Positions 9,125-14,389 of a stretch of DNA of 51,073 nucleotides are shown here, piece by piece (positions within the stretch are counted from its first letter, which is position 1; each line of letters begins with the position of its first letter). A model generated the notes under the pieces. It worked only from the letters and a program-made list of their open reading frames with translations. It searched no databases and had not been told where the DNA came from. The translations under genes and the position numbers were made by a program. The DNA is from Prochlorococcus sp. AG-402-K14 (lineage in GTDB: Bacteria > Cyanobacteriota > Cyanobacteriia > PCC-6307 > Cyanobiaceae), in the NCBI GenBank assembly GCA_003216815.1, contig QCIG01000013.1, positions 1-51,073 of the forward strand, read 5' to 3'.

Positions 9125-9209
9125 GTATTGATCTATGAATTTTTAAGGATAGAATTAACAAAGATATTTTTATAAGGTTAAAAATTGATACTCATATTTG
9201 CTTTCAATT

Positions 9210-9965
9210 ATGAAATTTAAACCTTGGAATAATATAAAAATAAATGAATGTCATGAACCCTTAATTACTATTCCACAATCAATATTTCGATTAACACCTC
9301 ACCCTTATATGTCGTTAGGGGCACCATATCTAAATGGAGCAGACCCATGGGTTTTGCGTAAAAGTGTTTTAAAAAGATTAATAGAAGCGCAGAAACATCT
9401 TACAGAGAGAAATCCAGATTTGAAGTTGGCTTTGTTTGATGCTTGGAGACCTATTCCTGTTCAAAAATTCATGTTTGATTACACCATTCATGAAACTTGT
9501 AAGAACAGGGGGATTGATATTAATGATCATTCTTTAAATGGAATTGTCACTGAAATAATAGAAGAGGTTGGTATGTTTTGGGCTAAACCATCATCCAATC
9601 CTTCTACCCCGCCTCCACATAGCACTGGTGCCGCTATTGACTTGACTCTTGCTGATATAAATGGTCAACCGTTGGATCTTGGGGGAGAAATAGATTTTAT
9701 AGGGGATAAGTCTCGTCCTAACTTTTATGAACAAGATTCTTTAAGGATGCCTTATTCAAAATATCATGTTTTTCACAATAGAAGATTTCTTTTGTCCTCA
9801 GTTATGGAAGAGGCTGGGTTCGTTCAACATCCAAACGAGTGGTGGCATTTTAGTTATGGAGATCAGTTATGGTCTTGGTTAAGTAAGAGAGGTAATGCTA
9901 TTTATGGATCGACATTTGATGTAAGTAAAGACATCACGCTCTCATACCCCAGCTTCGTTACATGA
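9210..9965 (+). CDS. ddpX: D-alanyl-D-alanine dipeptidase (VanX/DdpX family)
   Basis: A zinc peptidase of the M15D group, 251 residues from the ATG at 9210. A TTG at 9198 would add four residues but has no better ribosome-binding site. Motifs are DAWRPIPVQ (the catalytic Arg region), HSTGAAIDLTL (zinc His and Asp) and HPNEWWHFSYGD (Glu and the second zinc His). It hydrolyses D-Ala-D-Ala. In non-resistant bacteria this serves cell-wall dipeptide recycling, so glycopeptide resistance should not be assumed. The 3' end overlaps the convergent sulfite reductase gene by 64 bases. Confidence 0.88.
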   Translation: MKFKPWNNIKINECHEPLITIPQSIFRLTPHPYMSLGAPYLNGADPWVLRKSVLKRLIEAQKHLTERNPDLKLALFDAWRPIPVQKFMFDYTIHETCKNRGIDINDHSLNGIVTEIIEEVGMFWAKPSSNPSTPPPHSTGAAIDLTLADINGQPLDLGGEIDFIGDKSRPNFYEQDSLRMPYSKYHVFHNRRFLLSSVMEEAGFVQHPNEWWHFSYGDQLWSWLSKRGNAIYGSTFDVSKDITLSYPSFVT

Positions 9966-12079
9966 TCTCCAAGACTTGAAGACTTCTTGTTATCTTTCCA
10001 GTTAAGAAATAAAGGCTCTAATGTTTTCTCTAATTCATTGATAGGCATTTTTTGTAGATATGGCCTTGCTAACCTTTTTAAAGTTGTGCTGCCACCCAGC
10101 CATAATTGGTATTGATTTAAACCACTTCCAACTAGCGCTAGTTCTGCCATGTATGGACGAGCACATCCATTTGGACAGCCTGTAATTCTAATTAAAATTG
10201 ATTTATTGATATCTAGGCTTTTTAATTGATTGTTTATACGGTTTAAAAGTTCGGGTAAAAACCTCTCTGCTTCTGTCATTGCAAGTCCACATAATGGAAG
10301 TGCTGGGCAAGCCATGGCATGCCTAGCCAGGGGCGCAGGATTACCTGGATCTGAGAAACCTATTTTGATTAAAGCATTGTTTATGCTGTTTTTTTGGTAA
10401 TTACCGATGTTGCACAATAATAAATCTTGGTTGGGAGTTAAACGTACATCTAATGCATATTTTTCAACTATAATTCTAAGTTCTTTCTTTACTTTTCCTG
10501 AAAGTCTACCTGATAATAGTGGTAGGCCAACAAACCATAATTTGTCGGATTGTTGATGCCAGCCTAAATAATCTTCAAGCTTTGTCTCGCCTTCGTCCTT
10601 TAGTTTCTTAATGCTTTTAGTAAAATATTTAGTCATTAACTGTTTCTTAAACCAATCAACACCCATATCATGTAAAACATATTTAAGCCTTGAATGTCTT
10701 CTAGTTTTTCTGTCACCATAATCTCTTTGAAGAGCAAGTATAGATTGAACAAGTTCTAGTATATCCTCTCCTTCTACATAACCAATTGGATCTGCTATTC
10801 TTGCAAATGTAGTATCTAGGTTATGTGTCCTACCCATGCCTCCTCCCACGTAGACATTGCATCCTTCTAAAGCTCCTTTTCTGTTCGTAAATGTTACTAA
10901 CCCTATGTCATGAGTTAGAATATCTACAGAATTATCTCCTGGGACTGTTGTCGCGCATTTGAATTTTCTTGGTAAGTAGGTCGAGCCATATAAAGGTTCT
11001 TTATTGTCCCCACTGAAAATACCTGGATTTAGCTGTTTTTTTCTATTCTTTTTGACATCTGAAGATGGTTTTATTGCGTATTTGAGCGCACCATCAACCC
11101 ATAAATCTAGATAAGTTATTTCTGCTTTTTTAGGTGATAAAACATCTGCTATATCATTTGCTAATTTTCTAGCAGCAGGGTAAGAACCTTTTTCGTATGG
11201 TGCTGCTGGGGCCATAACATTCCTATTGATATCTCCACATGCTGCTAGGGTTGATCCCATAGATTTAACTATTGTCCCAATAACTTCTTTCAGATTTTGT
11301 TTCTTGATTCCATGCATTTGAAAGCATTGACGAGTTGTCGCTCTAAGCGTTTGGTTGCCTAATCGATCTGAGAGCTCATCTAATGCAACGAAAAGTGGAC
11401 CTGGGACCAACCCGGCTGGATTCCTAAGCCTCAGCATCATTTGCCAATCTTTACCTGTTCCACCTTTCTTTCTATGCTCGCGATCATCTTGTTGATAACT
11501 ACCATGAAATTTTAATAGTTGAACCGCATCATTTGTAAAGTGATCGCTTGTGTTTATTAATTCACTTTGTAGTGGTTCATTTAAGTAATTACTATCTGCT
11601 TTGAATTGTTCAAATTTAGCTCGAGGGGATTTATTGGCTATGCAAGGTGAAGGAACAGTTTTCTCTACTTCAGCATCATTTGTGTTTTCTTTTTCCTCAA
11701 AATTCATCAGAGCTTCAATAGCTGCATTGCTAAATCCAGCATTTTTTAGGTCTTTTTTTATGTTTTTTGGAGATTCTTCTAAATTAGTATTTTTTATTGC
11801 TTCGACTCTTATGCCTTTTGGCAATGATTTGTTGATATTCTTTGCCTCTTCTTCTTTTAACTTTTCGTCAAATTTTTGTTGAATAGCTATTTCTGCTGAG
11901 CTTATGTTTTTCTCAGCTTCTTTTCTGGTGTTACCAATTTTTTTTACGACATCACATGTTCCAAAAGCATCCCTTAACTTACCTCTTGGTACGGCAACCC
12001 TGAGGTAAAACCCTGATCTTCCTGGTATTTGTATAATCTTAGGCAAATGGTACCTACACCGGTACCTACACTGTATCAT
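9902..12079 (-). CDS. sir: Ferredoxin-sulfite reductase with an integrase-like N-terminal extension
   Basis: The frame of 725 residues contains a complete sulfite reductase from about residue 151. It holds FHGSYQQDDRE, the substrate-binding RATTRQCFQMHG region, and both siroheme/4Fe-4S cysteine motifs, CPALPLC and GCPNGC, near the C-terminus. The enzyme reduces sulfite to sulfide with ferredoxin for cysteine synthesis. The first about 150 residues are foreign to the family. Residues 14-77 resemble the N-terminal domain of tyrosine recombinases, and 78-150 form a Lys/Glu/Asn-rich linker. An internal ATG at residue 125 (codon at 11707) would give a 601-residue protein of more normal length, but its ribosome-binding site is weak. 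The fused form may be translated, or only the internal start may be used. Confidence 0.9.
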   Translation of the reverse strand: MIQCRYRCRYHLPKIIQIPGRSGFYLRVAVPRGKLRDAFGTCDVVKKIGNTRKEAEKNISSAEIAIQQKFDEKLKEEEAKNINKSLPKGIRVEAIKNTNLEESPKNIKKDLKNAGFSNAAIEALMNFEEKENTNDAEVEKTVPSPCIANKSPRAKFEQFKADSNYLNEPLQSELINTSDHFTNDAVQLLKFHGSYQQDDREHRKKGGTGKDWQMMLRLRNPAGLVPGPLFVALDELSDRLGNQTLRATTRQCFQMHGIKKQNLKEVIGTIVKSMGSTLAACGDINRNVMAPAAPYEKGSYPAARKLANDIADVLSPKKAEITYLDLWVDGALKYAIKPSSDVKKNRKKQLNPGIFSGDNKEPLYGSTYLPRKFKCATTVPGDNSVDILTHDIGLVTFTNRKGALEGCNVYVGGGMGRTHNLDTTFARIADPIGYVEGEDILELVQSILALQRDYGDRKTRRHSRLKYVLHDMGVDWFKKQLMTKYFTKSIKKLKDEGETKLEDYLGWHQQSDKLWFVGLPLLSGRLSGKVKKELRIIVEKYALDVRLTPNQDLLLCNIGNYQKNSINNALIKIGFSDPGNPAPLARHAMACPALPLCGLAMTEAERFLPELLNRINNQLKSLDINKSILIRITGCPNGCARPYMAELALVGSGLNQYQLWLGGSTTLKRLARPYLQKMPINELEKTLEPLFLNWKDNKKSSSLGDHVTKLGYESVMSLLTSNVDP
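11849..12040 (-). other. Integrase N-terminal-domain-like segment fused in frame to sir
   Basis: These codons encode residues 14-77 of the sir reading frame: IPGRSGFYLRVAVPRGKL, then VVKKIGNTRKEAEK and IQQKFDEKL. A Tyr-X-Arg-X-X-X-Pro core, followed by a LG/IGN-T-R-K-E-A motif and a long helix, is what I know from the N-terminal domains of phage-type tyrosine recombinases (DUF6538-like). The catalytic recombinase domain (R..H..R..Y) is absent from the frame. The resemblance is by eye, so a profile search is needed to settle it. Confidence 0.6.
12049..12071. repeat. 11-base tandem direct repeat at the 5' end of the sir frame
   Basis: GGTACCTACAC occurs at 12049-12059 and again at 12061-12071, a period of 12. 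On the coding strand it produces the duplicated Cys-Arg-Tyr in the first ten residues (CRYRCRY). It lies exactly at the start of the integrase-like extension. Confidence 0.85.
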
Positions 12080-12226
12080 TTCCTATGTTTGTTGGTGTCT
12101 AATTGTTCAAATGAAATCATCCCTGACGAAGGTTGTTTTTATTTTGTGTTAAATTTTTTCTAGGACACAGAATGTAGAAGTTATTCAAGTTTAGATCTAA
12201 TCTTGCTAAGAATATAAGGAACTTTT

Positions 12227-14389
12227 TTGTCTACTTACCTTTTAGAAATTGGCACAGAGGAGCTTCCAGCTGATATGGCTGAATCTGTTATTGCCCAGCT
12301 TCATTTAAGTGTGAAAGATGACTTGAATTCTTCTCAAGTAAAATTTAGTGACATAAGAGTTACAACTACTCCTAGAAGAATTGTATTAATGATTGAAGGG
12401 ATTGCTCCTTTTGCTGAAGATAATATTGAAGATCGAAAAGGCCCTCCTGTCGCTCAAGCTTTTCATGATGGAAAGCCTACAAAAGCAGCAATTGGTTTCG
12501 CTAAAAGATACAATGTCACTCCTGATGAATTAGAGACTAGAGAAACATCAAAAGGATCATTTGTTTTCGCCAAATTAATTGAGAAAGGCAAGCCAGTTGT
12601 AAGTTTGTTATCTGAATACTTGCCTGTGTGGATAAGCAAAATCCAAGGAAGAAGGTTTATGAGATGGGGTGAAGGTGATTTTCGCTTTTCGAGACCCATT
12701 CGTTGGATTGTTTCTTTGCTGGATTCAGAAGTTTTATCTTTTAAAATTTCCGGATGCGATCCTGAAGTAGAGATTGGAAATATCTCAAGACCCCATAGGT
12801 TGCATGGATCAGCATTTTCAATTGATAATGCGACAACGTTTTTTGATCAATTGCAAAATGTTGGAGTAATTGTTGACAGACATAGTCGCCTTTCAATGAT
12901 TAATGATTTAGTTGTTAATCACAAAATTAATAATAATTGTAGCCCAGATTTGACTGCTCCACTTTTAAAGGAACTTACAGATTTAGTGGAGTCTCCTTTG
13001 CTTGTGAAGGGGAGTTTTGATGACTCTTTCCTGGACTTGCCCCCTGAGGTCTTGGCTACTGTAATGAAGGTTCATCAAAGGTACATTCCTTTATACAAAT
13101 TAAATGTTGAATCTGATCCATTATCACTTCATTCAAGAAATATTTTACTTCCATGCTTTTTCTGTATTAGTAATGGATTACCTTCAGCCAAAGAGAATAT
13201 CATTTCAGGGAATGAGAAAGTTCTAAAGGCAAGGTTTTCTGATGCTTCGTTTTTTATAAAATCAGATTTATTAATCAACAGTTCTACTCGTATTGATAAA
13301 TTAAAAGATGTAACTTTTGCGGAGGGATTAGGTACTTTATATGATCGTGTATCTCGTATTAAATGGCTTACTAAATTATTGACAACAAAACTTAAATTTG
13401 ATCAAGCGGATATTGATCAATCTGTTAAAGTTGCACATTTTTCTAAACATGATTTAGTTAGCAACATGGTGGATGAATTTCCAGAATTGCAGGGAATTAT
13501 TGGATCTAAATACTTACTTTATGAGGGAGAATCAAGAGATGTATGCCTTGGGGTGTTGGAGCATTACAAACCCAAAGGATCTACTGACTCCATTCCATCA
13601 AACAATCTTGGTAATGCTGTTTCATTGGCTGAACGCTTTGAGTTGCTTTTTAGCATTTTCATAAAGGGTGAAAGACCAACTGGTTCATCTGATCCATATG
13701 CTTTAAGAAGGGCCGCGAATGGTATATTATTAATTTTGTGGAATAAAGATTGGCAATTAAATATTAATGAAATAATTGATGATTCTTTAATATATTGGAA
13801 GCAATTATTTCCTTTGATATCTTTTGATATAGTAAGTCTTGCCAAAGAGATAAAAGAATTCTTTCGTCTAAGAATTATTAGTTTATTAGACGAGAAACAG
13901 ATCGACTTTGATATTATTCAGTCAATTGCAGGAGATACAACTCCAACATCAATATTGTTAGACGATCCTACAGATGTTGATTTTCGTGCTTCATTATTAG
14001 TAAATATGAGAGAAAATAATACACTTAACTTGTTGCAAGCTGTGGTGACTAGAGCATCTAAGCTCGCTGCCAAAAGTTCTATCACTATCGATGTTATAGA
14101 TCCCTTGATTGTTGTTGATAAGTCTTTATTTGAAAAGGATTGTGAGCTTAAAATGTTTAATGTTTTGGAGAAATTAATGCCTCTAGCCATAAAGGGTGAT
14201 CGTATTAAGTATAAGTTATTAGCTGATGGACTTGTCTCAAGTGCTGAGATTTTATCAAACTTTTTTGATGGAGAAGAAAGTGTAATGGTTATGTCAGATA
14301 ATATTAATCTTAGGAATAACAGGCTTAATCTATTATCAATACTTAGAAATCAATCTTTGATTATTGCAGATTTCAGTAAACTTGGCTAA
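12227..14389 (+). CDS. glyS: Glycyl-tRNA synthetase beta subunit
   Basis: A 720-residue beta subunit of the bacterial alpha2beta2 enzyme. It begins LLEIGTEELPADM, the family hallmark, and contains KGPPV, RFMRWGEGDFRFSRPIRWI, a VMKVHQRYIPLY segment and a C-terminal helical DALR-like anticodon-binding region. The start is TTG at 12227, supported by AAGGA about 8 bases upstream. The gene is divergent from sir across about 150 bases and converges with chlP at its end. The alpha subunit (glyQ) is not in this window. Confidence 0.96.
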   Translation: MSTYLLEIGTEELPADMAESVIAQLHLSVKDDLNSSQVKFSDIRVTTTPRRIVLMIEGIAPFAEDNIEDRKGPPVAQAFHDGKPTKAAIGFAKRYNVTPDELETRETSKGSFVFAKLIEKGKPVVSLLSEYLPVWISKIQGRRFMRWGEGDFRFSRPIRWIVSLLDSEVLSFKISGCDPEVEIGNISRPHRLHGSAFSIDNATTFFDQLQNVGVIVDRHSRLSMINDLVVNHKINNNCSPDLTAPLLKELTDLVESPLLVKGSFDDSFLDLPPEVLATVMKVHQRYIPLYKLNVESDPLSLHSRNILLPCFFCISNGLPSAKENIISGNEKVLKARFSDASFFIKSDLLINSSTRIDKLKDVTFAEGLGTLYDRVSRIKWLTKLLTTKLKFDQADIDQSVKVAHFSKHDLVSNMVDEFPELQGIIGSKYLLYEGESRDVCLGVLEHYKPKGSTDSIPSNNLGNAVSLAERFELLFSIFIKGERPTGSSDPYALRRAANGILLILWNKDWQLNINEIIDDSLIYWKQLFPLISFDIVSLAKEIKEFFRLRIISLLDEKQIDFDIIQSIAGDTTPTSILLDDPTDVDFRASLLVNMRENNTLNLLQAVVTRASKLAAKSSITIDVIDPLIVVDKSLFEKDCELKMFNVLEKLMPLAIKGDRIKYKLLADGLVSSAEILSNFFDGEESVMVMSDNINLRNNRLNLLSILRNQSLIIADFSKLG

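Follow-up and report, generated by a model that had tools for sequence, protein, structure and literature searches.

The sir gene on the minus strand at 9902-12079 of contig QCIG01000013.1 of Prochlorococcus sp. AG-402-K14, a stretch of 51,073 nucleotides analysed whole and henceforth called the window, specifies a ferredoxin-type sulfite reductase (SiR) that is complete and has gained about 130 N-terminal residues (12 to ~145). An integrase N-terminus has been fused to this housekeeping enzyme and kept by selection; the fusion and its integrase origin are near certain. A paired direct repeat immediately precedes the start of the gene, and from the sequences we consider it somewhat better than an even bet (a probability of roughly 0.55) that SiR regulates its own gene through a domesticated arm-binding domain, which was retained along with the DNA site that it reads. 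We recognised no description of such a fusion in the open PMC literature at the level of its listings.

The frame is intact and spans 725 residues when counted from an ATG at 12079. It scored 738.9 bits with TIGR02042 (ferredoxin-dependent sulfite reductase), above the curated cut-off of 731.5, and 752.8 bits with NF010029 (cut-off 457), and these NCBIfam profiles place the beginning of the SiR core at about residue 146-151. The core (residues 146-725; 9905..11644, minus strand) contains both CPALPLC and CPNGC, cysteine motifs that we take to be those of the siroheme/iron-sulfur centre. A preliminary description of this DNA had credited the frame with some 150 extra residues, of which 14-77 were likened to the N-terminal domain of phage-type tyrosine recombinases, the catalytic half being absent; the added N-terminus is real, if slightly shorter, and both the resemblance and the loss were borne out, the latter by the absence of any PF00589 match in the 725-residue protein.

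The evidence for an integrase ancestry came from searches in both directions. With the fusion as tblastn query, residues 12-75 matched a frame of ~422-424 residues in genome G001 at 44% identity (E 6.7e-8). This frame (L063/L132) is a tyrosine recombinase with matches to PF00589 (E 1.1e-7) and PF13102 (E 8.4e-8), and it reached DUF6538 at E 1e-4, below the cut-off of that model. Conversely, the G001 integrase as query found the fused sir in 21/21 same-genus genomes with sir and in the sister-genus genome G081 (E 7.5e-8 to 1.7e-6), matching the frame of the window at 44% identity (E 7.5e-8); the matches to this query, fused sir among them, came from 18 of 59 sampled genera and are not independent. 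A profile built from the N-termini of four picocyanobacterial tyrosine recombinases only (L135, L136, L137, and L140) detected all 22 sampled fused sirs, 21 same-genus and that of G081, at E 1.7e-15 to 1.9e-21 (E 1.9e-17 for the frame of the window), and in the window's own genome it matched nothing but the fused sir. Profile-profile comparison of the fusion with the integrases by hhalign gave Prob 99.5 and E 1.3e-22 over 102 columns (residues 13-125), extending beyond the N-terminal domain into KDLKxAGFSxxAIxAL. Since the match runs past the N-terminal domain, residues ~12-129 are taken to be integrase-derived, with the join to SiR between ~130 and 146.

On the minus strand, the extension can be divided into the integrase-type N-terminal domain (residues 13-77; 11849..12043), a variable linker (residues 78-100; 11780..11848; mean identity 72%), and a second integrase-like stretch, KNIKKDLKNAGFSNAAIEALMNFEE (residues ~105-129; 11693..11767), that lies inside the integrase-profile match at 11693-12040. 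The preliminary description was right about the fusion itself and missed both this second stretch and the tandem repeat. The N-terminal domain is common to the fusion and to the picocyanobacterial recombinases of G001, L135, L136, L137, and L140, the stretch after it resembles those of L135, L137, and L140, and the tandem repeats before the start have counterparts at L132, L135, L136, and L137. Unlike the fusion, these recombinases continue into SAM-like and catalytic domains (PF00589 in 8/8 members of the integrase alignment), and their repeats are mostly of other sequence.

The recombinase models of Pfam and PHROGs had no match in the extension, an outcome that the preliminary description would have held against its own reading; the 22 of 22 matches to the picocyanobacterial profile overturn it. 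The matches that did appear in the extension, to DUF4473 in Pfam (E 0.012, 0.0014, and 0.00068) and in PHROGs (best E 0.071), were set aside as weak and unrelated. DUF6538 (PF20172) was found in 0/16 fused extensions at E up to 10, and it was reached by only 3/8 related integrases, of which the two with scores shown fell below cut-off. Against the PDB, the top match of the integrase profile, DotG (E 8.7e-8), covered just the short second stretch and was put down to a shared repeat pattern; the next matches, variant surface glycoproteins among them, had E values of 0.026 or worse, and the best match of the fusion profile had E 0.089, so that neither profile yielded a credible relative there. 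In IMG/VR, the integrase alignment found no relative, the one locus matched by the fusion alignment turned out to be an unrelated frame, and the tandem repeat occurred in two contigs with no integrase-like or SiR-like frame recognised in the 900 bases behind it in three frames. Among the INPHARED phages, residues 13-136 had no match at E up to 1, and the L137 integrase as query matched four records (two phages, each twice) at ~24% identity.

The preliminary description had rightly presented the fused architecture, but wrongly as a peculiarity of this genome. A first tblastn survey with the whole fusion covered 40 genomes (own included), 25 of them same-genus, and gave a full-length match in 18/25, all beginning at query residue 1, 11, or 12; of the other seven, three had no match and four only a nitrite-reductase-like paralogue at 28-30% identity. 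A second survey of 300 genomes of the family matched 278, among them 21 of the 24 same-genus genomes listed, and once more every match began at residue 1, 11, or 12. That listing does not include another two same-genus genomes, which had no match, and the matched gene of G292 is cut by a contig end. Combining both surveys, the extension is present in 29/29 same-genus genomes having a sir match. Outside the genus, among the matches listed, only G081 has it (64% identity, from residue 12), all other matches listed starting at residue 83 or beyond, and the 23 extended loci among 59 named ones are all labelled Prochlorococcus single cells or isolates. Nor is the extension a property of picocyanobacterial sir at large, as most sampled genera lack it. 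In a maximum-likelihood tree of 38 SiR cores (13 fused, a subset of the fused loci; 23 unfused; 2 outgroup), the fused genes fall on one side of a single branch (support 99/96; 98% of 200 bootstrap trees). These data are consistent with one old fusion event, kept across a Prochlorococcus genus and one sister lineage.

We then asked where translation begins and whether the extension is under selection. At residue 12 (12044..12046, minus strand) the 29 aligned fused genes have TTG (27/29) or GTG (2/29). An in-frame TAG nine bases before this codon in 21/29 leaves it as the sole remaining start in those genes, and in the window and four others the frame is open up to an ATG 33 bases upstream. Translation thus likely starts at TTG 12046 rather than at ATG 12079, as first proposed, although the open frame means that ATG 12079 may still be the start in the window. 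The internal ATG at residue 125 (11705..11707, minus strand), proposed earlier as a start that could restore a normal enzyme, is ATG in 24/29 and CTA, ATC, or TTT in 5/29, and is therefore not a conserved start; of the separate translation of the extension that had also been considered there is no sign, all fused genes read having one open frame. The ratio of nonsynonymous to synonymous substitution (dN/dS; pooled pairwise over 28 same-genus sequences, with the G081 gene left out) was 0.063 for residues 13-77, 0.149 for 78-100, 0.204 for 101-135, and 0.162 for 136-155, and 0.081 for SiR residues 156-725. The domain is translated and under strong purifying selection, with a constraint about equal to that on the enzyme core, while the linker and the second stretch are under looser constraint than either.

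The paired repeat has the arrangement TGTAGGTACC-NN-TGTAGGTACC, with a two-base variable spacer, just before the TTG/GTG start. In the window the exact pair occupies 12049-12070 on the minus strand, copy 1 at 12061..12070 and copy 2 at 12049..12058; the latter overlaps the ribosome-binding region and is where the in-frame TAG of the 21 genes lies. Two direct 10-mers stand 1 to 3 bases ahead of the start in 29/29 aligned fused genes and are letter-for-letter a TGTAGGTACC pair in 26/29. Across 28 same-genus loci, 18/20 repeat positions are invariant, with a mean consensus of 99.6%; the spacer bases have consensus 0.89 and 0.79, and for 165 four-fold sites in these genes the mean is 74.8%, with 1.8% invariant. 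The sole departures within the genus are one A-to-T change in one copy at each of two loci, and in G081 this same change is found in both copies, each reading TGTTGGTACC. Together with the repeats, a conserved AATGATACAG immediately upstream (12071..12080, minus strand; it includes ATG 12079) accounts for the most conserved upstream 24-base windows, and this block is possibly a promoter.

The paired site is also unique. Allowing up to three mismatches, it occurs once per genome in 23/31 same-genus genomes, at the sir start already known in 22/23 (the remaining genome being G328). It is missing from eight genomes, namely G327 and seven for which the first survey had given no full-length sir match; the reversed pattern, used as control, occurred once in 31 genomes. 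We rejected a regulon on these grounds: the tandem is found once per genome, and the window's own genome has nine single-repeat matches when one mismatch is allowed (the sir pair accounts for two), versus 13 in the control. No tandem repeat was present in 39 unextended sir rows (of 41 inspected, some genomes twice), whose N-termini are short, unrelated, and variable; a single GGTACC occurs in four of the inspected rows.

Many related integrase genes show the same organisation. A fixed scan (at least 9/10 matching bases) found a tandem repeat at the same place before the start in 15/23 related integrase loci, versus 8/111 other open reading frame (ORF) starts of the same loci; the 23 scored loci, of 26 (three without the N-domain motif were left out), include near-duplicates (L151, L155, and L161) and the truncated frames L143 and L144, and antisense frames may be present among the 111 control ORFs. 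Repeats unscored by the scan are also visible by eye in L146, L148, and L149, the scored repeat of L149 being another one. The integrase repeats mostly differ in sequence, with TGGTAGGACC twice in G001, TGTGGGTACC three times in L136, TTGTAGGTAC/TTGTAGATAC in L137, and TGTGACTAAA twice in L151, and those of L137 and L136 share 9/10 bases with the fusion. Domain similarity and repeat similarity are correlated (Mantel test, 14 rows: r 0.57, P 0.0004); common descent can account for part of the correlation. L137, at first regarded as the nearest integrase relative, was discarded in that role, as the domain similarity to the fusion is slightly higher for L133 and L135.

A precedent for such a loop is offered by the prophage KplE1, whose integrase IntS is reported to repress its own promoter about fivefold via overlapping sites (PMC2951348). 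Integrase N-terminal domains bind arm-type sites, which in KplE1 overlap the integrase promoter, and the same authors report that the promoter overlaps attL in 61.5% of integrase genes associated with tRNAs (PMC2951348). Given this precedent of integrase self-repression, the simplest reading is that sir inherited that loop. In the ancestor of the Prochlorococcus genus and its sister lineage, the 5' end of a tyrosine-recombinase gene was probably joined in frame to the chromosomal sir start. It brought along the N-terminal domain with the stretch that follows, and it seems to have carried the tandem repeat from ahead of the start as well. The domain would still recognise both direct repeats, which lie across the ribosome-binding region and possibly a promoter, and surplus SiR would bind them over its own start and lower its own synthesis, as an enzyme-regulator of the PutA/BirA type whose reader domain was taken from an integrase. 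Three elements of this loop are inferred from the sequences: the arm-type nature of the repeats, their recognition by the domain, and repression through this binding; sulfite, ferredoxin, or the assembly state are guesses at the relieving signal.

A broader proposal, to which we give slightly less than even odds, is that the 5' module of an integrase gene, consisting of a paired site and its reader domain, was transferred as a portable cassette for self-control to sir, an essential gene of sulfur metabolism, which it now serves genus-wide as a single-target autoregulator and metabolic feedback sensor. If integrase genes often start with a binding site and a reader domain, one in-frame joining could place any gene under self-control, and a mobile element may thereby donate regulation to a host gene by a simple route. 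For a streamlined marine cyanobacterium, this would suggest a feedback device for sulfur assimilation.

Several observations weigh against autogenous control. The repeat could have been kept as an RNA element or promoter instead, and beside the site no sigma-70 consensus match was found in 11950-12300, the terminator and promoter scans likewise giving nothing that bears on it. Eight of the 23 integrase loci were without a repeat in the scan, and L140 had none there. The Mantel correlation drops to r 0.30 (P 0.038) without near relatives, and its rows were 12 hand-picked integrase loci with a visible repeat plus two fusions, a choice that leaves out the rest and favours the proposed loop. For L133 and L135, the most similar to the fusion in the domain, just 6 and 7 of the 10 repeat bases agree with those of the fusion, and the second stretch by itself gives a weak profile match (Prob 53, E 1.3e-4).

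An unlikely though serious alternative is that the domain serves the protein itself, whether for assembly, for docking of ferredoxin, or for binding DNA in general and associating with the nucleoid, the repeat being kept for promoter or ribosome-binding reasons. The SiR core is already basic (isoelectric point, pI, 9.3), as is the domain (residues 13-77, pI 9.7), and plant plastid SiR is reported to bind and compact DNA (PMC4154389). A general DNA-binding role predicts no single conserved site, however, and both repeat copies are equally conserved even though the first is too far upstream for a Shine-Dalgarno sequence, while the spacer varies and related integrases carry repeats at the same place. 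Decidedly less probable is an RNA element, in which the palindromic GGTACC of one copy would pair with that of the other, forming a hairpin ahead of the start that governs translation, whether or not the N-terminal domain takes part. A 6-bp GGUACC stem is indeed predicted (-10.7 kcal/mol), but the fold does not outperform shuffled sequences (z -0.30 and -1.19), both copies have an invariant TGT outside the stem whereas the loop varies, self-complementarity is lacking in several integrase repeats (among them TGTGACTAAA and TGGTTGGGAC), and Rfam gave no match at E up to 1 in 11900-12300. A neutral scar, an integrase leftover fused by chance and cleaved off or bypassed via an internal start, is strongly disfavoured by the dN/dS of the domain, the retention of the extension in 29/29 same-genus genomes with sir and in G081, and the loss of the internal ATG in 5/29, even though truncated frames with the same N-terminal domain exist in the family (L143, 177 residues; L144, 111 residues).

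If SiR does control its own gene, it would resemble known systems in part only. PutA and BirA are trigger enzymes whose DNA-binding domains are of the ribbon-helix-helix or helix-turn-helix type. The arm-binding domain of integrases folds as a three-stranded sheet with a helix. Like these two, the fused SiR would be an enzyme carrying a DNA-binding domain through which it regulates the pathway it belongs to; it differs in the integrase origin of its reader domain. We know of no integrase-type domain in plant SiR. The plant plastid SiR/DCP68 belongs to the same enzyme family (TIGR02042) and also binds DNA, but the binding reported for it is a general compaction (PMC4154389). With intS of KplE1 the fused sir has in common a site overlapping the start region of the gene as the proposed control point (PMC2951348), but IntS is a recombinase acting at attL, and the fused sir product is a metabolic enzyme from a gene with no att site or element.

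Additional observations concern the integrase family. L143 (G246:C1:634613-634933) and L144 (G060:C2:90595-90822) carry the same integrase N-terminal domain with no recombinase domain found, L143 having no Pfam match, and may be either truncated integrases or further stand-alone copies of the domain. Although they look unrelated, the integrase loci L132, L135, L136, L141, L143, and L144 all have, upstream of the integrase, a stretch like GTGCCGTGCGAGCCCCAGTGATCGACCTGAA that may be an attachment site common to them. The window's own genome contains an intact 395-residue recombinase frame (L001) and, near the gene for ribosomal protein S4 (PF00163), a broken tyrosine-recombinase-like stretch (L002; G000:C18:12779-12967 and flanks) with two internal TAG codons and a PF00589 match below cut-off (E 1.2e-5).

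Finally, we compared the surroundings of sir. In several unextended sir loci (L071, L113, L114, L117, and others) a block such as TTCGCTACGGT precedes the start, and closer to it lies ATGACACCGTGAC, which forms a frame of three codons with its stop overlapping what may be a GTG start; the pre-start block varies a lot among the 24 loci compared. Downstream of the window's sir, on the side where recG also lies, is a convergent D-ala-D-ala dipeptidase-like gene (9198..9965, plus strand; PF01427, E 4.5e-28), and the divergent neighbour is glyS, for the glycyl-tRNA synthetase beta subunit (12227..14389, plus strand; PF02092, E 1.2e-169). Among 34 loci compared (31 unextended and three extended, two of these from the same cell), glyS adjoins sir in 34/34 and the dipeptidase-like gene in 33/34, the contig of L118 stopping within sir. 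The same neighbours in extended and unextended loci indicate that the extension arose while the gene order around it stayed as it was. At their 3' ends, sir and the dipeptidase-like gene have 64 bases in common (9902-9965).

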